NCBI GenBank assembly: GCA_012960415.1
Contig: DUBH01000067.1
Span: forward strand, 30,905 to 71,906
Length of the DNA: 41,002 nt
Origin: Henriciella sp.
GTDB lineage: Bacteria > Pseudomonadota > Alphaproteobacteria > Caulobacterales > Hyphomonadaceae
Direction of reading: 5' to 3'
Shown in pieces: positions 26,290 through 41,002 of this stretch. The notes under the pieces are model-generated. The model saw only the letters and a program-made list of their open reading frames with translations. It was not told where the DNA came from and searched no databases. The translations under genes and the position numbers were made by a program. The stretch's first letter is position 1. Each line of letters starts with the position of its first letter.

Positions 26290-26373
26290 GCGTACGCAGG
26301 GTCAGCCTGTGCTGAAATGAACTCCCGGTCTAAAACGCTTGCAGCAAAAAAAGACCAAGAGGGAGCATGCGTC

Positions 26374-31252: not shown

Positions 31253-34072
31253 ATGCCGACCAGAAAGACGCCGCTCGACCCGGCCCGCATCCGCAAGTTC
31301 CTGCGCGACCACGCCGAGGGCATTGATCGCGACCCGCTGACCAATTCGGTTTTCTCCTTTGCCCTTCAGCTTTTTCAGGACCTTGAGGCCGGCCGCACCA
31401 GCCTCTCCAGCGTCGCAGAAACGGTGGACGTGCTGCACTTCGATCTCCTGCAGGCACGCGCCGACCAGTTCAGGGCGCAGCACACTGAGATCGGCAAACC
31501 GAAGGATGCGTTCGCCGGCGTCGGCGCGCAACTCTCTGCCCTCGCCAAGTCGGACCCTGACCGTTTTCGCGAAACCGTAACGCGGCATGCTGGCGGTATT
31601 GTCTTTACCGCTCACCCGACTTTCGCTCTCTCCCAGCGCCTGCGCCGTGCCTTCGCCGCCTATGCAAGCCAGCCCGGCAAAGGCGAACTCGCCACCCTCA
31701 AATCCGCCGCCAGCGATCCCCAACCAGACTGGCCCGACCAGATCACGCTCAGACATGAGCATGAAGAAGCGCAGGACGCGATTGCGAACGCGCAGGACGC
31801 CGCCGGCCACTATGCCAGCCTCATTGTCGAAACAGCCCGAACATCCCTCGATAACTGGCGCGGCCTGCGCCCGGTCCTGCCAACACTTGCAAGCTGGGTC
31901 GGCTATGACCTCGATGGACGCACCGACATTCACTGGTCGCAATCCATCACGCTACGCCTTCGCGAGAAGGCCGCCCAGCTCGCCTATTATCGCGGGCGTC
32001 TTTCCAATTTCGACGAGTTCGAGACGCTTAAGGCTCTAGAGGAACGGCTCGCCGCTGCGCAGGCCCATACCGAAGCAGCCGCCGGAAGATTCGGCCAGGA
32101 CCTCTCAGACCCGGACGTTCTCAGCGACGCCGCCAACTTCCTGACAGCCGCCTCGGACGCGAAAATCACCGACGCGGCCACCCTGACCGATCCACTGACG
32201 ACGCTCATCGAAGACGCTGAGACGCCAGATGAGACAGCAGCCGCCCTGATGATCCTGCGCGCCGAAATTGATGCGCTCCAGCTCGGCACCGCCCGCATCC
32301 ATCTTCGCGTGAACGCTGCGCAGGTGCGCACCGTCCTTCAGCGCGATCTCGACCTTGAAACCGAAGACAGTGAGCTTGGCCGCCTTGCGCTCAGCAAGCT
32401 GTCAAAGATGGCGGGCAAAACAGAGGTGCGCCCCGTCAATTTCGCAGACCTCTTCCTCGAACAGTCCACCGCCCGGCGCCAGTTCATGATGTGCGCGCAG
32501 ATCCTGAAACATGTCGATGCAGGCTCACCCATCCGCTTCCTCATCGCAGAGAGCGAAAACCCGGCAACCGTCATGGGCGCGCTGCACCTTGCCCGCCAGT
32601 ACGGCGTGGATCATGCCCTCGACATCTCACCGCTCTTTGAAACACCAGAAGCCCTCGAAACCGGCGGGCGTTTTGTCGAACGCCTGCTCGAGGAGGCTGC
32701 CTTCAGGGACTATGTCAAAACTCGCGGCTATCTCTCTATCCAGCTTGGCTTTTCCGACTCTGGCCGCTTCATCGGTCAGGTCGCCGGCAATATGGCGATT
32801 GAGCGGATACACAGCCTGATCGGACGCGCGCTCGGCGAAGTCCTGCCCGGCACGGGCCTTCTAGTCTTCAATACGCATGGCGAGTCCATCGGACGCGGCG
32901 CCTATCCCGGCAGCTTCCAGCAGCGCCACGATCATTTGTTGACGCCATGGACGCGCGGTGAGCTCCTCGCCCGCGACATCCAGCCCATCCACGAAGTGAG
33001 CTTTCAGGGCGGCGACGGTTTTCTTCATTTCGCCACGCCAGAGCTGTCGCGCGCGACCTATGCCGCCTTCTGCGAACACATCCTGTCAGAGCCAGCCTCT
33101 ACCGATGACGACGCGTTCTATACCCAGACCGACTTTGTCTGGGATGCCTATCGCGCGCTTCGAAACTGGCATGAGACGCTGTTTGTCGACCGCGACTATG
33201 AGAAGATGCTGGGCGGTTTCACCTCCGGCTTTCTGGTCAAGGCTGGCTCGCGCCCGGTAAAACGCGCGGGCGGACCAAGCGGGCCATCTGCCATCCGGGC
33301 CATCTCGCACAATGCCATGCTCCAGCAGCTTGGCGTGCCGCTGAATTCCGCCTGCGGGATCGGCTCTGCCATGCCGCGAGAGAAAGAGCGGATGCGCGAC
33401 ATCATCAATGCTTCGCCGCGCCTTCATGCCCTCATCATGCTGGCCACCCGTGCCCGGATGCTGACCAGCCTGCCAGTCCTTCGCGGCTATGCAAGTGTCT
33501 TCGACCCGCATGTCTGGCTCGCTGTGTCCCGTCATGGCGACGTCTCACAGGCCAGCGCCCTTCGCCGCGTCGCAGATACGCTCGGTGAGAATCATACAGC
33601 TGCCAGCCTTCAGAAAATCGCCAACCGACTAAGCGTGGACCTGATCGAGTTTGATACACTGATCGCCTCGCTCGATGATGCGCCCAGCGTCGAGAGCCGG
33701 CATGAGAACCGGCTGGACTTCCATGCTCTCCACGCCATCCGCCAGGCTCTGATGCTTTACGCGCTCAGCCTGACAGGCCGTCTCAGCGATCTCTCGGCGC
33801 GCCACGATACCAGCCGCAGCGACATCATTTCGCTCGTTCTCGACATGCGGATCGATGATGCTGCCGACCTCCTGGAGACGATCTACCCACCGTCTCGCGG
33901 CGAAACTGACATATTTCAGGGCATGGTCGAACCCGGCTATGAAAGCGGCGCACCAAGTCAGGCAGGCTATGATCGCCTCCATCAGGAGTTGATAGAACCA
34001 CTCCGCCAGTGTGGGTCGCTTATCTCAAGGCTTTCAATAGCCACCAGCCATGCCTTCGGGGCATGGGGCTAG
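31253..34072 (+). CDS. Divergent phosphoenolpyruvate carboxylase-like protein
   Basis: A 939-residue protein with the overall length and motif order of bacterial PEP carboxylase, but unusual at key positions. The first catalytic motif is kept as TAHPTF (H121, E. coli H138). The motif YSDSAKDAG reads FSDSGRFIG, so the catalytic Lys (E. coli K546) is R505. The mobile loop FHGRGGSIGRGG reads FNTHGESIGRGA, so the first Arg (E. coli R581) is a His and the first His (H579) is Asn, while the last Arg (E. coli R587) is retained as R548. GSRPVKR (R667) and the second arginine (R682) are kept. The C-terminus ends in FGAWG instead of the usual NTG. AGGGAG lies nine bases before the ATG. It sits 195 bases upstream of pfaD. 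Activity as PEPC is doubtful. Confidence 0.82.
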   Translation: MPTRKTPLDPARIRKFLRDHAEGIDRDPLTNSVFSFALQLFQDLEAGRTSLSSVAETVDVLHFDLLQARADQFRAQHTEIGKPKDAFAGVGAQLSALAKSDPDRFRETVTRHAGGIVFTAHPTFALSQRLRRAFAAYASQPGKGELATLKSAASDPQPDWPDQITLRHEHEEAQDAIANAQDAAGHYASLIVETARTSLDNWRGLRPVLPTLASWVGYDLDGRTDIHWSQSITLRLREKAAQLAYYRGRLSNFDEFETLKALEERLAAAQAHTEAAAGRFGQDLSDPDVLSDAANFLTAASDAKITDAATLTDPLTTLIEDAETPDETAAALMILRAEIDALQLGTARIHLRVNAAQVRTVLQRDLDLETEDSELGRLALSKLSKMAGKTEVRPVNFADLFLEQSTARRQFMMCAQILKHVDAGSPIRFLIAESENPATVMGALHLARQYGVDHALDISPLFETPEALETGGRFVERLLEEAAFRDYVKTRGYLSIQLGFSDSGRFIGQVAGNMAIERIHSLIGRALGEVLPGTGLLVFNTHGESIGRGAYPGSFQQRHDHLLTPWTRGELLARDIQPIHEVSFQGGDGFLHFATPELSRATYAAFCEHILSEPASTDDDAFYTQTDFVWDAYRALRNWHETLFVDRDYEKMLGGFTSGFLVKAGSRPVKRAGGPSGPSAIRAISHNAMLQQLGVPLNSACGIGSAMPREKERMRDIINASPRLHALIMLATRARMLTSLPVLRGYASVFDPHVWLAVSRHGDVSQASALRRVADTLGENHTAASLQKIANRLSVDLIEFDTLIASLDDAPSVESRHENRLDFHALHAIRQALMLYALSLTGRLSDLSARHDTSRSDIISLVLDMRIDDAADLLETIYPPSRGETDIFQGMVEPGYESGAPSQAGYDRLHQELIEPLRQCGSLISRLSIATSHAFGAWG

Positions 34073-34267: not shown

Positions 34268-35776
34268 ATGCGGATTCAGCATTGGGAACCCAGTCATCAT
34301 AGCGGCCCGGCCATGAAGGTTGAGACGCGCCAGCCCCCCTTAACCAAACAAGGCTCTGAAAACGACACGGCAGCGGTCTATGCAGACTGGCTGGGCGATC
34401 ACGCATTCACCAAGACCCATGGTAGCCGCTTTGCCTATATCGTCGGTGAGATGGCGCGCGGCATCGCAACGCCGCACATGGTCATCGCGGCTGTGCAGGC
34501 GGGTCTGGTCGGCTTCTATGGAAGCGCTGGCCTCAAGCCGGACACCATCGCCGCAGGTCTTGATGAGATTGAGGCCGCCCTCGGCAAAGGCGCGCCTGCC
34601 TGGGGGGCCAACCTCATCCATACGCCGCAGCAGCCGGGCTATGAGCGTGCCGTCGTTGACCTCTTCCTCTCGCGAGGTGTCGCCCGCGTCTCTGCCTCTG
34701 CCTTCATGCAGCTGTCGCCCGAAATCGTCCGATACAGCGCCGCTGGCCTGTCGCGCGCCGCCGATGGCAGCATCCAGCGCAGCACCTACGTCTTCGCCAA
34801 GGTCTCGCGCGCAGAAGTTGCGCGCCAGTTCATGGCCCCTGCTCCCGATGCCATTCTGAAACAGCTCGTCTCCCGGGGGGACATCACACGCGAGCAGGCC
34901 GAGATCGCCGCGAGCGTCCCGGTTGCTCTCGACATTACCGCCGAAGCCGATAGCGGCGGGCATACTGACAATCGCGCCGCCGGTCCGCTCTTCTCCTCAC
35001 TGGTTCAGGCGCGCCGCCAGGTCTGCGAAGAGCATGGCATCAACGCCGACGATATCCGCATCGGCCTTGGCGGTGGGATCGGCACACCCTGGGCAGCAGC
35101 CGCAGCCTTCCAGATGGGCGCGGCCTATATCATTACCGGATCAGTCAATCAGGCCGCGGTCGAATCCGGCCTCTCGCTGGCCGGGCGCAAACTGCTGGCG
35201 GATGCAGGCCCGGCTGACGTCTCGATGGCTCCGGCCGCCGACATGTTCGAACAGGGCGTAGAGGTTCAGGTGCTAAAGCGCGGGACGCTTTTCGCCATGC
35301 GCGGCAAACGCATGCGCGAGATCTACAGGACACGCACCAGCTTTGCCGACTGCACGCCGCAGGAACAGGCCTTCATCGAAACCGCGCTTGGTGAGCCCTA
35401 CGCTGCCGCATGGGAGAAGACCCGCGCCTATATGAGCGCGACCAATCCGAAAGAGCTCGCGAAAGCCGAAGCCGACCCGCGCCATCAGCTGGCGCTTGTC
35501 TTCCGGCGCTATCTTTTCTTTGGGGCGCAGTGGGCGCGTGAAGGCGATGAAACGCGCCTGCGCGACTACCAGATCTGGTGCGGCCCGGCGATGGGCGCCT
35601 TCAATGAATGGGTGAAGGGAAGCCCGCTCGAAGCGCTCGAGAACCGCACCGTCAAACAGATTGCGCTGAACCTCCTCGACGGGGCGGCTCATCTCACACG
35701 GCTCCAGGCGCGGCGCGCGTGCGGAGAGAACATTCCACAATCAGCTTTCGACTACAGGGCGGGGCTATTCGAATAA
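34268..35776 (+). CDS. pfaD: PfaD-type trans-acting enoyl reductase
   Basis: A 502-residue FMN-dependent enoyl reductase of the PfaD family, a 2-nitropropane-dioxygenase-like TIM barrel that reduces double bonds in the chain carried by Pfa polyunsaturated-fatty-acid synthases. Landmarks: AYIVGEMARGIATPHMVIAAVQAGLVGFYGSAGL, GANLIHTPQQPG, the phosphate site GLGGGIGTPWAAAAAFQMGAAYI, and the C-terminal WCGPAMGAFNEWVKGSPLE, a PfaD hallmark. It begins at ATG 34268; an internal ATG at 34313 is an alternative. The next gene starts 28 bases downstream, so pfaD and pfaA are one operon. Length agrees with PfaD rather than the smaller nitronate monooxygenases. Confidence 0.92.
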   Translation: MRIQHWEPSHHSGPAMKVETRQPPLTKQGSENDTAAVYADWLGDHAFTKTHGSRFAYIVGEMARGIATPHMVIAAVQAGLVGFYGSAGLKPDTIAAGLDEIEAALGKGAPAWGANLIHTPQQPGYERAVVDLFLSRGVARVSASAFMQLSPEIVRYSAAGLSRAADGSIQRSTYVFAKVSRAEVARQFMAPAPDAILKQLVSRGDITREQAEIAASVPVALDITAEADSGGHTDNRAAGPLFSSLVQARRQVCEEHGINADDIRIGLGGGIGTPWAAAAAFQMGAAYIITGSVNQAAVESGLSLAGRKLLADAGPADVSMAPAADMFEQGVEVQVLKRGTLFAMRGKRMREIYRTRTSFADCTPQEQAFIETALGEPYAAAWEKTRAYMSATNPKELAKAEADPRHQLALVFRRYLFFGAQWAREGDETRLRDYQIWCGPAMGAFNEWVKGSPLEALENRTVKQIALNLLDGAAHLTRLQARRACGENIPQSAFDYRAGLFE

Positions 35777-35804: not shown

Positions 35805-38800
35805 ATGGCAGACAGAACGTCAGGACCAGCAGACATCGCAATTGTGGGCTACGGTGCCATGTTCCCGGGCCGTGGGGACACGCCGGGCTTCTGGCGCGAT
35901 ATTGCAGAAGGCGTCGATACGCTGGGGCCGGTACCGCCGACCCACTGGCTGATCGAAGACTATTACGACGCCAATCCGCGCGCCCGCGACAAGACATATG
36001 GCGAGCGCGGCGGCTTCCTCTCGCCGCAAGGCTTCGATCCGCTTTCCTTTGGCATCCCGCCGAACCAGATCGACGCGACTGACAGCGCGCAGCTGCTCGC
36101 CCTTATGGTCGCACAGACCGCACTGGATGAGGCTGAAAAGGCCACCAATGGCACCATCGACCGCAAGCGTACCTCCTGCATCCTTGGCGTCGCATCGGCC
36201 ACCGAGCTTGTCGGCCATATGTCCGGCCGCCTGCAGCGCCCGTCATGGGTAAAGGGCCTGCGCGAGGCTGGCCTGCCAGAGACGCAGGTGCAGGCGATCG
36301 CCGACAAGATTTCTGAGAATTTCTCCGAGTGGAAGGAAAGCACCTTTCCCGGCCTTCTCGGCAATGTCGTCGCCGGGCGGATCGCCAACCGGATGGACCT
36401 TGGCGGCTCGAACTATGTGACAGATGCGGCCTGCGCCTCATCCCTCTCGGCGCTGCACGGCGCCATCCATGAGCTTCGCGCCGGTGATAGCGACCTTGTC
36501 CTCGCCGGCGGTGTCGACGCGCTGAACGACATTCTCATGTATATGTGCTTTTCCAAGACACCGGCCCTGTCGCCGACAGGGGATTGCCGCCCCTTCTCGG
36601 ACAAGGCCGACGGCACCATGCTTGGCGAAGGGATCGGCATCCTGGCGCTCCGCCGGCTTTCCGATGCAGAGCGGGACGGAAACCGTATTCATGCTGTCAT
36701 CAAGGGGATTGGCGCAGGCTCGGACGGGCGCGCTACGGCGATCTATGCCCCGCTCCCGGATGGTCAGGCCCGCGCGCTTGGCCGCGCCTATGAACAGGCG
36801 GGTTATGACCCGCGCTCTGTCGAACTCGTCGAAGCACACGGCACCGGTACAAAAGCGGGTGACGCCGCCGAAATATCCGGCCTGAAACTTGTCTTCTGCA
36901 AGGAAGGCGAAAGCGTCTCCGATCCGTGGTGCGCCATCGGCTCTGTGAAATCACAGATCGGCCACACCAAGGCGGCTGCAGGCTCTGCCAGCCTCATCAA
37001 GACGGTCATGGCGCTCTCGCGCAAAGCGCTGCCACCGACACTGAAAGTCGACCAGCCCGCCCCCGCGCTCGCCGGGTCACCCTTCTATGTAAATCGCGAG
37101 CTACGCCCCTGGGTCAGAGACAAGGCCCATCCGCGACGCGCCTCTGTCAGCTCCTTCGGCTTCGGAGGGTCGAACTTTCACGTCACGCTGGAAGAATATA
37201 CCGGCCAGCTCGCCCCTCACCCCGACCGCATTTTGCCAGCCGAGCTGGTCATGGTTTCGGCAGACACGCCGGACAACCTCGCCAAGACTATCGAGACTAT
37301 CGCGTCGAAGCTGGTGCATGAGGAAGACCTCGCCATCGCGGCCAGCGAAGGCCACGTCTCATTTGCTGCCGATGCCGTCTGCCGCGCGGCCATCACCGCC
37401 AGCGACAATAAGGACTTCGCCGCCAAAGCCGCAAAGCTTGCCTCGCTCATTCGCGCAGGCACTGCCGAAACAGCCCCTCTGCCGAAAGGCGCCACCATCA
37501 GCCTCAGTAAGGCCGCGCCCGGAAAGCTCGCCTACCTTATGCCCGGACAGGGCAGCCAGTATGTCGGCATGGGCCGTGAGCTCGCGCTCGCCTTCCCTGA
37601 AGCGCGCGCCGCATGGGACTTTGCCGCCAGCCACAAGAAAGCGGGCAAGCTCGCCCTTCACCGGCTCGCTTTCCCGCCATCGGCTTTCAATGACGAAGAC
37701 GCCAAGGCGCAGGCCGATACGCTGACCGCGATGGAGAACGCACAGCCCGCGCTCGCTGCAGCGTCACTGGCCGTTCTCGCCGTGCTCGAAAAGGCCGGAC
37801 TAAACGCCGACATGGCCGCCGGTCATAGCTTTGGAGAGATCATGGCGCTCAATGCCGCCGGCGTTCTCTCTGACAAGGATGCGCTCTCGACCGCCGTCAA
37901 ACGCGCCAAGCTGATGAACAAAGCCGCCGCCGACAATGAAGGCGCAATGCTGGCGACACAGGCATCCAGCGAGCAGCTCGCGCCAATTCTCAAAAACCAT
38001 CCGGACGTCGTTGTCGCCAATGACAATGCGCCGACCCAGACCGTGCTCTCCGGACCGGTCGACGCGATCGAAGCGGCCCGTCAGGCCATAGAGGCCGCTG
38101 GCATCAAGGCGCGCCGCCTGCCGGTCGCGTCGGCCTTTCACTCGCCGATAGTTGCAGGCGCCGTTGCCCCGTTCCGCAAGGCGCTCGGCAAGACTGACTT
38201 TGCCAAGGCTGACTTCCCTGTCTTCGCCAATGCCTCGGCCAAGCGCTACCCGCTTGCCTATGACAAACAGCGTGATCTCCTCGCCGGACAGATCGAAAGC
38301 CCCGTCCGCTTCCGTGAGATCATTGAGGCGATGCATGAGGCAGGCGTCACCACCTTCTTGGAAGCTGGCCCCGGCACGGTGCTGACCGCGCTTGTCGGCC
38401 AGATCCTTCCCGGCAAGGCGACCGCCGTCGCGCTCGATGACAAGAAGGGCAGCGGCCTCGCCGCTTTCCTCGCTGGCATCGGCAAGCTGGCTGTCCTCGG
38501 CCATGAAGTCGACCTCGAAGCGCTCTTTGCCAACATGCCAGCGCCAGAACCGCGAAAAGCCCGTTCCAAGCACGCGATCGACCTTACCGGCGCCAATTAC
38601 AACAAGCCCTATCCGCCGAAAGGCGGTGCAGCCGCGCTCCCGCCGCCAAACGCCGAGAACACCCGGCCAAAGCTGAGCGAACCCTTATCCGCTGCTCCAC
38701 CCGACCCGATTGCATCAAAGCCAGCACCGCCAACACCTTCTTCTGTAAAGTCACCCCAGCCAGGACCTTCGCCCATGACTGAGCCCCGCCAGACCGCTCC

Positions 38801-39728
38801 CGCCTCCACCGCCGCGCAGATCCACGCGCAGATGACGGAGGCGCATAATGCCTACATGCAGACACTCCAGACGGCGCACGCCCAGTATATGCAGGCGACG
38901 CAAGCGATGCTCGCGGCGTCCAGCGCAGTCCCTGCCGCCGCGGCGCAACCGCAAGCCGCGCCAGCGCCTCGGCCCGTGGCCCCACCTGCCCCGGCACCGG
39001 TCGCAGCAGCTCCTGCACCTCAACCGGCGCCAGCTCCCGTCCCATCTGCGCCTGCCCCGGCGCCTGCGCCGATCATGGCAGCGCCAACGCCTGCTCCGGC
39101 TCCGGCCCCTGCTCCAGCCGCCGCGCAGGACTTCACCGCACTCGTGACCAGCCTCGTCGCTGAGAAAACCGGCTACCCGTCAGACATGCTCGAACCTGAC
39201 ATGGACCTTGAGGGTGAGCTGGGCGTCGACTCCATCAAGCAGGTCGAGATCCTCTCGGCCCTGCGTGAGAAGATGCCGAGCCTGCCGGAAATCGAGCCTG
39301 AACAGATCGCCGAACTCCGCACGATCGCGAAGATCGCGGCCTTCCTCAGCCCATCGGACAGCGCCGCCCCGGCTCCCGCGCCAGCGGCCCCAGCTGTGCA
39401 CGCGAATGGCAATGGCTATGCGAATGGCAACGGCCACCATATCGCTGCCGCCGCGCCTGCGCCTGCTCCGGCAGCGCCGCCCGCAGCAGCCCCGTCCGGC
39501 GTCAACATGACCGAACTTGTCCGCAACCTCATCGCCGACAAGACGGGCTATCCGCCGGAAATGCTCGAGGACGATATGGACCTTGAGGGCGAGCTTGGTG
39601 TCGACTCCATCAAGCAGGTCGAGATCCTCTCTGCCCTGCGGGAGCAGATGCCGAACCTGCCAGAAGTTGAACCGGAACAGATCGCAGAGCTGCGCTCCAT
39701 CCGGAAGATCGCCGATTTTTTTGGCTAG
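35805..39728 (+). CDS. pfaA: PfaA/HglE-like multidomain synthase, KS-AT-ACP-ACP part
   Basis: A 1307-residue type I iterative polyketide/fatty-acid synthase module. Ketosynthase (about 10-460): C210 in [11 protein letters not shown]345 in EAHGTGT, H387 in GHTKAAAG. Acyltransferase (about 575-900): [10 protein letters not shown] at 581-590, S675 in GHSFGE, H779 in SAFHSP. A 35-residue helical segment rich in Gln/Met (1007-1042) and a long Pro/Ala linker follow. Two acyl carrier proteins: S1143 and S1268, both in [16 protein letters not shown], 125 residues apart. EPA/DHA PfaA proteins carry five or more ACPs; two resemble HglE or secondary-lipid synthases. It stops after the second ACP, with the KR domain continuing in the -1 frame. 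GAGGGGC precedes the ATG. Confidence 0.93.
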
Positions 39729-39763
39729 GGGGCGCGCCGGCGTCGCCTGACGCTGCCCGCCCC
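39716..39763 (+). promoter_or_regulatory. Candidate programmed -1 ribosomal frameshift signal
   Basis: The slippery heptamer T_TTT_TTT (39716-39722) is exactly in phase with the pfaA reading frame (GAT TTT TTT GGC TAG). The spacer is six bases, including the stop codon. It is followed by a GC hairpin: outer stem GGGGCG (39729-39734) with CGCCCC (39758-39763), inner stem 39738-39744 with 39749-39755 (one G-U pair), loop GCCT. After a -1 slip, reading continues through a Pro/Ala linker into the KR domain. A lost T in a homopolymer (T8 read as T7) gives the same continuation and is the main alternative. Confidence 0.6.
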
Positions 39764-40840
39764 GCTTCGCCAGCTCCCGGGCAGGAAGCCGCAACGCTTC
39801 CATCCCTGCCGCTCAAGGCTGTGGCTTATGTCAGCCAATCCGCCATCGGACGGGTGACACCGGGCCTGCGCGAAGCATCGCTGACTGAATGGGTGAGCCC
39901 GGACCTCGGCGCAGCGCAGCCCTTCGTGGCCGCGCTCAATGCATCGGGCTTCAGGGTCAGCGCCGTCACCAGTCCGAGCGGGACAGCCAGCGCCCTGATC
40001 CTCGCCCACGGCCTAACCAGCCCGCGAGAGACTTTGCACGCAGATGCCGTCGCTGCGCTCAAGATCAACGCCCCGCAACTCGAAACCCAGGGCGGCACGG
40101 TCATCCTGCTTCAGGACACAGGCGGGCTCTTCCAGCCGCACGACCACCGGGCCTGGCGCGGCGGGCTTTCCGGCCTTGCCCGCACCGCCGCACGAGAATT
40201 CGCCGCCGCCACAATCCGCCTGATCGATATCGACGTGGCTGGCTTCGGCACGGCGCTCGCGGCCAGCCATCTCGCCGAAGAACTGCTCACGGGCGGCACC
40301 GCGCCCACCGCAGGCCTCAGCCCCGCTGGACGTTACGTGCCGCAGGACACAGACTTCACCCTGCCCCGCAACCAGCCGGGACGCCTTGGCCCGCAGGACG
40401 TCATCCTCGTCACAGGGGGCGCGCGCGGCGTGACTGCAGACTGCGTGATTGAGCTCGCCCGCCGCACAGGCGCGCGCTTCGCACTGCTCGGCCGCTCAGA
40501 GATCACACCATGGCCCTCAGGCCTTCCCGTCACCACAGATGAAAAAGCGCTGCGCGGCGCGCTCGCAAAGGCGGCCAAGGACGCTGGCGAGAGGATCACG
40601 CCTGCCGCGCTTAACAGCCGCGCCCGCGCCTTGCTCTCCGGCGCTGAAATCCGCGAAACGCTGGACGCTATCGCCCGCGCTGGCGGTGAGGCGCGCTACA
40701 TCCCGGCAGACGTCTCTAACCCCGCCGCCCTCGGCGCAGCCCTCACCAATATCCGCAGCCAGCTTGGCGACATTACGGGTCTCGTGCATGGCGCAGGCGT
40801 CCTTGCTGACAAACTCATCCGCGAGAAAACGCCCGAACAG
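39723..40840 (+). CDS. pfaA: PfaA C-terminal ketoreductase domain in the -1 frame (incomplete)
   Basis: A stop-free frame running on from the slip site. It starts with a Pro/Ala linker ([18 protein letters not shown]), then a PfaA-type KR: the structural half around residues 30-210 ([36 protein letters not shown]) and the catalytic half with the NADPH motif [15 protein letters not shown] (about 40409-40450) and [21 protein letters not shown]. In this frame a TGA stands at 39668-39670; there is no ATG, GTG or TTG between it and GTG 39821, which is already inside a conserved strand. So it is not an independent gene. The KR is cut before its Ser and Tyr catalytic residues by the MurI-like sequence that follows at about 40840. 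Confidence 0.85.
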
Positions 40841-41002
40841 ATCCGCGCCCGCAGTCGCAGCATTGCCCGGTTTCTGATTGCCCAGGGCGCCAAGGCGCTG
40901 GTGGTGGCCTGCAACACCGCGACCGCGGCGGCCGTTGCCGAGCTGCGCGAACTGCATGATCTACCGATTATCGGCATGGAGCCCGCCGTCAAGCCGGCGG
41001 CC
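40838..41002 (+). pseudogene. murI: Glutamate racemase (MurI) fragment fused in frame, probable chimeric join
   Basis: From about codon 40838 the frame no longer matches a KR domain but reads [33 protein letters not shown]... and [22 protein letters not shown] carries the catalytic cysteine (codon 40910-40912) of glutamate racemase, and [11 protein letters not shown] is another MurI landmark, in the right order and spacing. MEPAVKPA is characteristic of beta/gamma-proteobacterial MurI. Only the first ~55 residues of this region are visible. KR domains continue here with a completely different sequence. The likely explanation is a misassembled contig end; a real recombination is possible but less likely. 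Confidence 0.8.

Follow-up and report, generated by a model that had tools for sequence, protein, structure and literature searches.

A candidate programmed -1 ribosomal frameshift site at the ACP/ketoreductase boundary of an iterative Pfa-type lipid synthase in Hyphomonadaceae

The stretch of DNA analysed here (the window) is 41,002 nucleotides long and corresponds to bases 30905-71906 of contig C67 in an 86-contig draft genome of Henriciella sp. The end of the window is also the end of the contig. The features of interest are all close to this end:

34268..35776, + strand: pfaD-like gene, directly upstream of the pfaA-like ORF (TIGR02814, 550.9 bits; cutoff 449.25)
35805..39728, + strand: pfaA-like 0-frame ORF of 1307 aa, KS-AT-ACP-ACP, the predicted short product (Pfam KS, AT and two ACP stretches)
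39516..39719, + strand: second ACP (PF00550, residues 1238-1305 of 1307, profile positions 2-66 of 67)
39716..39722, + strand: slippery heptamer T_TTT_TTT, in phase with pfaA (GAT TTT TTT), seen in the sequence
39716..40843, + strand: -1 frame, with the linker and the 5' part of the KR, cut short at the chimeric end (Pfam KR, E = 9.5e-14)
39723..39728, + strand: one sense codon, GGC, followed by the 0-frame stop TAG (39726-39728), seen in the sequence
39729..39763, + strand: 35-nt GC-rich hairpin, the proposed stimulator, 6 nt past the heptamer (fold and covariation)
40821..41002, + strand: chimeric contig end, outside the system (182 bases identical to L041)

The locus qualifies as a Pfa gene cluster, with a PfaD-type enoyl reductase above the cutoff in the window and a further KS gene next in the relative L038. 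In L038 this KS-AT gene comes after the KR; the contig of the window strain breaks before that point. Against the PfaA model TIGR02813 the 0-frame protein scores 990.3 bits, just below the curated cutoff of 1010.1, and the KR part of L038, scored separately from the 0-frame protein, gives 290.6 bits at model positions 1911-2267. Upstream of pfaD there is a 939-aa ORF (31253-34072) in which about 140 residues match PEP carboxylase (Pfam, 48.5 bits, above cutoff), with a score far under the cutoff of the NCBIfam model. Elsewhere in the window, an in-phase A7 run (A_AAA_AAA, 26346-26352) lies about ten codons into an ORF listed from 26317, the true start of which may be a later ATG.

The last 182 bases of the window do not belong to the synthase. 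They are identical to a contig of a Pseudomonas MAG (NORP330; L041) and encode a fragment of a racemase (MurI). Because bases 40821-40843 are alike in the Pseudomonas contig and in the KR of the relative L010, with one mismatch in 23, the join is placed there. The rest of the KR of the window strain is found on contig C43 (G000:C43) from about base 591. The first 590 bases of that contig gave no DNA-level alignment with L010, L038 or L041, and a plasmid search with the chimeric end gave no match. The contig end is most likely an assembly chimera of the last 160-180 bases or so, remote from the frameshift signal.

The 0 frame of pfaA ends in GCC GAT TTT TTT GGC TAG, and according to Pfam the second ACP of the window is complete ahead of this stop. 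An earlier note on this DNA had described an in-phase T_TTT_TTT, a stop, a six-base spacer and a stem, and all four are present as described. It had also placed the KR in the -1 frame, behind an upstream stop and with no start codon. The frame and the stop, which is 48 nt upstream of the slip, are correct; the KR frame does contain GTG codons, at 39821 and 39854.

The KR of L038 was used as a query (E <= 1e-25) against 105 genomes of the family of the window strain, Hyphomonadaceae, to which NCBI assigns Henriciella. A KR is encoded in 57 of them, spread over three of ten genus groups. Two could not be read across the junction (in G112 the match begins at the contig start, and in G115 the contig lacks the ACP), leaving 55 readable junctions. 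Each was scanned downstream of the ACP serine motif for the first 0-frame stop, accepting stops within 60 codons and with no requirement for a heptamer. All 55 have a 0-frame stop exactly 43 codons past the serine motif, with T6(T/C)-NNN ahead of the stop and GGG behind it. Of the heptamers, 38 are T7 and 17 are T6C. TGA serves as the stop in 21, TAG in 19 and TAA in 15; with three different stop codons at one position, it is the function of the stop that is kept, and not its letters. When the same site is aligned across these genomes, as the earlier note had suggested, none of the 55 has a single open frame. The split genes form one clade, and the 55 genomes therefore do not represent 55 independent events.

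A pattern search that made no use of the KR found the layout and its ACP context exactly once in each of 53 of the 105 family genomes, while a reversed control pattern had no match in the same 105. The four KR genomes missed by the pattern are G010 and G125, where one letter differs upstream of the heptamer, and the two at contig edges, G112 and G115. The T6Y heptamer alone is unremarkable, occurring twice in the window against 3.25 expected. Its codon usage is less ordinary: the first slip codon is TTT in all 55 junctions, whereas upstream 0-frame Phe codons in the same fetched stretches are TTC 302 times and TTT 87 times, and those near the end of the first ACP are TTC 13 times and TTT once. 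U_UU.U_UU.U and U_UU.U_UU.C both appear among the motifs that PMC4066793 lists as efficient in E. coli measurements, and that source also names H_HH.U_UU.Y among the most efficient heptamers; the T7/T6C variation thus keeps within the slippery set. The site accordingly has an in-phase X_XXY_YYZ heptamer, and both site and layout are conserved across the family.

One genome departs from this picture. G052 (L027, 1200-1300) retains the heptamer and the stop, part of the linker is deleted, and the -1 frame ends after 15 codons; the KR follows the stop in the 0 frame, and the hairpin differs from that of the family. This may represent decay, an error, or another route to the KR.

The region downstream of the stop (39729-39768) has a predicted folding energy of -26.3 kcal/mol (z = -3.39), with 1 of 200 dinucleotide shuffles equally stable. 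The earlier note had counted a 6-bp outer and a 7-bp inner stem. The outer stem is as it stated, and the inner stem is predicted to have 8 bp, arranged as 2+6 in the minimum-energy fold and as 1+7 in the centroid. Fourteen hairpins were folded in all (the window and 13 chosen relatives), with z between -1.97 and -3.82 throughout. In the predicted folds of 46 distinct 40-nt post-stop stretches, the first base after the stop is paired in 45, its partner being base 35 in 33, base 32 in nine, base 37 in two and base 28 in one. The last of these is G125, with a shorter 28-nt stem, and the sole exception is G052, which folds otherwise. The outer pairing of the 47 distinct sites points to a hairpin of 35 nt in 36 and of 32 nt in nine, and agrees with neither length in G052 and G125. 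The two lengths differ by three, so that the -1 frame is kept. The stem starts 6 nt past the heptamer, within the spacing of about 5-8 nt that is given for stimulatory RNA structures in PMC4066793, and is the putative stimulator.

The alignment of all 47 sites was ungapped and mixes the two hairpin lengths, and they were therefore counted separately. The main covariation set consists of the 38 distinct sites that remain when the nine of 32 nt are removed, aligned without gaps and not fitted to the structure, and includes G052 and G125. In this set 79.3% of cells pair, compared to 51-61% when the pairing is slid by one to three columns. Both sides change in 60 cells; the shuffles average 21.9 (none of 500 as high) and the slid pairings give 14-45. 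The covariation score of 0.328 compares with 0.225 or less for the slid pairings. More weight is given to the slid controls, because shuffling leaves the relatedness of the sequences in. Among the five covariation measures, the number of further pair types in the 38 sites was not above shuffles (177 of 500 as high). The clearest covarying pair, columns 17 and 45, is A-U in 13 sequences, G-C in 13, G-U in 10 and other in two. Counted in a single register, the inner half of the stem has some positions that lack a pair in 16-22 of the 38 sequences. In the nine 32-nt sites, 98% of cells pair and there are no double changes. The 3' arm of the hairpin often encodes an Arg-Pro pair, and part of the conservation of that arm could thus reflect constraint on the protein.

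The KR itself is under purifying selection in the -1 frame. Its dN/dS is about 0.09: 0.09 for the window against G004 and 0.086 against G018 (1104 nt), and 0.082 for G017 against G014 over 1500 nt. The -1 frame is open across the 400 nt read in 54 of 55 junctions, the exception being G052. This selection suggests that the KR is expressed. It has no conserved start of its own among the 55 junctions: in the window, none of the starts in the first 300 nt comes with a Shine-Dalgarno match, and over the same distance six of 55, G052 among them, combine an in-frame start with a 4-nt Shine-Dalgarno match, at five different places. The KR is likely to be makeable only as a fusion.

On the basis of these observations, we propose that the ACP2/KR boundary of this iterative Pfa-type lipid synthase is a programmed -1 ribosomal frameshift site, with a probability of roughly 0.9. 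Ribosomes would read through KS-AT-ACP-ACP and arrive at GAT TTT TTT, the hairpin then lying at the mRNA entrance. Without a slip, a ribosome would read one further codon, meet the stop, and release a KS-AT-ACP-ACP protein with a complete second ACP, which would be the default product. In a fraction, both Phe-tRNAs would re-pair one base back, and the ribosome would read on through the linker into the KR to give the full PfaA. Both products could then enter the synthase complex, and the KR dose per ACP would be lower than in a fused enzyme and set by the shift efficiency. This reading takes the shift to be a ribosomal one and both products to be made and used; it also supposes that what is set is the ratio of KR to KS/ACP in the complex. 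The earlier note had suggested two such products from one -1 signal, and this appears to be the best interpretation of the layout, its conservation, the covariation, the selection on the KR, the lack of a conserved KR start and the fused homologues outside the family.

The alternative that survives best accepts the shift and questions its purpose: a neutral break in the frame could have been kept by a compensating slip signal, with a short form that has no function. This is compatible with the proposed frameshifting and is unlikely without being negligible. The short form has no known function, and G052 demonstrates that the layout can decay. On the other hand, all 55 retain the immediate 0-frame stop, in the form of three different codons, and the preserved stop can be argued to mean that termination is wanted; the undivided frame is found in none of the 55. 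Phase variation of the T run was also considered and rejected, the undivided frame being absent from all 55 genomes.

Transcriptional slippage, in which RNA polymerase adds or drops a base on the T run and so brings the KR into frame on an altered mRNA, was raised in the earlier note and is very improbable. Slippage on homopolymers is known in bacteria (PMC3711429), and 38 of the 55 junctions do have T7. The rule given in that source asks for a homopolymer of at least about eight, or for two shorter runs, which neither T7 nor the T6C of the other 17 provides; moreover slippage leaves the in-phase placement, the constant 6-nt spacer, the kept stop and the covarying hairpin unexplained. More improbable again is the idea that the locus consists of two genes, pfaA1 and pfaA2, with the KR translated alone by re-initiation. 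Split pfaA genes have been described for Type D and Type H clusters (PMC3098273), but the scattered starts with a Shine-Dalgarno match in six of 55 junctions do not provide the KR with a start of its own, and the heptamer and hairpin would have no explanation. Finally, a sequencing or assembly error, including the one-base deletion considered in the earlier note, or a decaying pseudogene, might be suspected from the 86 contigs and the chimeric end 1.1 kb downstream, but it is already refuted for the family by the same layout in 55 of 55 genomes, seven of them listed as one contig (G018, G041, G047, G106, G118, G124 and G135), and by the KR dN/dS of about 0.09, although reads of the window's strain could still differ.

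Outside the family, the KR is usually fused. In other families of the same taxonomic order (G213, G261, G247, G286 and G100) the KR and ACPs share one frame, and most of the genes obtained when the KR search was widened to further groups were fused as well. A tree of 48 KRs, with 32 of the split ones and 16 others, places the split KRs in one clade (support 99/92); G796, one of the 16 treated as fused, is itself split and sits outside this clade. A set of 50 KR loci outside the family, some of which are ordinary polyketide-synthase KRs, comprised 32 in one frame with the ACP, 10 at a locus edge, three (L170, L171 and L173) where the script missed the ACP and separate inspection found one frame, and five that are split.

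All five of these splits are by -1: G796 (L185), G830 (L194), a second copy in G886 (L206), L218 and L224. Each has an in-phase heptamer from the efficient E. coli list within at most 120 nt before the 0-frame stop, and the frequency of such a heptamer in codon shuffles is 0.09, 0.47 (a very short region), 0.02, 0.06 and 0.06 respectively. Stems 5-6 nt downstream are predicted for L185 (z -2.4) and L218 (z -2.2), and no such stem for L194, L206 and L224 (z -0.4 to 1.5). In-frame start codons follow the heptamer within 400 nt in every one of the five. In L206 and L218 one or two of these have a Shine-Dalgarno match, and separate translation of the KR is therefore possible there.

The individual cases differ. 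In L185 (reverse strand, from 1438), from the distant proteobacterium G796, C_CCA_AAG is followed 5-6 nt on by a 12-bp hairpin, and the switch to the -1 frame of the KR falls at the same domain boundary as in the window. Of 100 genomes examined as relatives of G796 five matched, and among these the C_CCA_AAG junction is in G796 alone: the split of G830 falls on an A10 run, in G436 and G832 the KR and an ACP are read in one frame, and the G791 locus is cut off by a contig edge. L218 (from 2048), on plasmid pPP1 of Persicobacter psychrovividus, has G_GGA_AAG, a 6-nt spacer, a short hairpin and the KR in -1, with a TTG that has a Shine-Dalgarno match 240 nt on. On the related plasmid of Persicobacter sp. 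JZB09 (L217) there is a single frame; in a Bacteroidota sample the KR was found in four of 390 genomes, with frames of 2359-2907 aa, and the Persicobacter site was not confirmed by relatives. L224 (from 2105), on plasmid pSALBX2 of Streptomyces albogriseolus, has C_CCA_AAA, one codon, TGA and the KR in -1, and lacks a clear hairpin; on the Streptomyces plasmids of L216, L222 and L223 the genes are fused. In L194 (near 1309) and L206 (near 973), pfaA-like ACP and KR part by -1 at A10 runs. Such runs are prone to sequencing error and mutation, and these breaks could be recoding, slippage or indels. Frame changes are also seen at other places, apparently inside an ACP in the case of L178.

With one genome per case, the outside splits provide a lead from sequence comparison and no demonstration. 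We regard it as possible, at somewhat less than an even chance, that recoding recurs at the ACP/KR boundary of Pfa synthases, where -1 frameshifting would have arisen independently in several lineages with different heptamers to set the KR dose at translation, and that the 'split pfaA' genes of the literature include unrecognised frameshift fusions.

A known counterpart of the proposed arrangement is dnaX (tau/gamma) of E. coli, in which an in-phase heptamer, a hairpin a few bases downstream and an early stop give long and short forms of a subunit. In dnaX the heptamer is A_AAA_AAG, there is an upstream Shine-Dalgarno stimulator, and shifting shortens the protein. The earlier note had likened the window to dnaX, and in general the resemblance holds: the heptamer, hairpin, early stop and (predicted) two forms of a complex subunit are common to both. 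The differences are that the heptamer here is T_TTT_TTY, that the predicted shift lengthens the protein, and that no upstream Shine-Dalgarno-like stimulator was found in any of the 55 junctions (listed 4- or 5-nt motifs, about 6-22 nt upstream of the heptamer). The -1 frameshifts of IS3-family and other bacterial insertion sequences also combine a heptamer with a hairpin, and there the shift gives a fusion, as proposed here; U_UU.U_UU.C is among the heptamers observed in IS elements according to PMC4066793. Those signals serve the transposase of a mobile element, whereas the window encodes a metabolic megasynthase.

One-frame PfaA synthases (TIGR02813) have the same KS-AT-ACPn-KR order and the same PfaD neighbour, whereas the KR of the window follows a stop and lies in the -1 frame. 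Shulse and Allen (2011; PMC3098273) list a Type D, with pfaA split into [KS-AT-ACP5] and [KR], and a Type H, also with a split pfaA. The Type D break is between the ACPs and the KR, as in the window, and is described as two genes; the term 'frameshift' is absent from the main text of that paper. A term search in the first 300,000 of the 475,107 characters of PMC5009743 gave no match; PMC12895367 was a further source. Among the literature matches listed there was no report of frameshifting in Pfa, fatty-acid or polyketide megasynthases; the GeneTack supplementary clusters are outside these matches and may hold an unnamed entry.

A gene finder is expected to call this locus as a PfaA without a KR, together with an orphan or missing KR. 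To our knowledge, the conserved -1 frameshifts established so far in bacterial genes are few once mobile elements, phages and dnaX are set aside. Should the cell make both products, translation would set how much ketoreductase the iterative synthase complex carries, and such dosing would bear on how iterative synthases are programmed to reduce or not to reduce.
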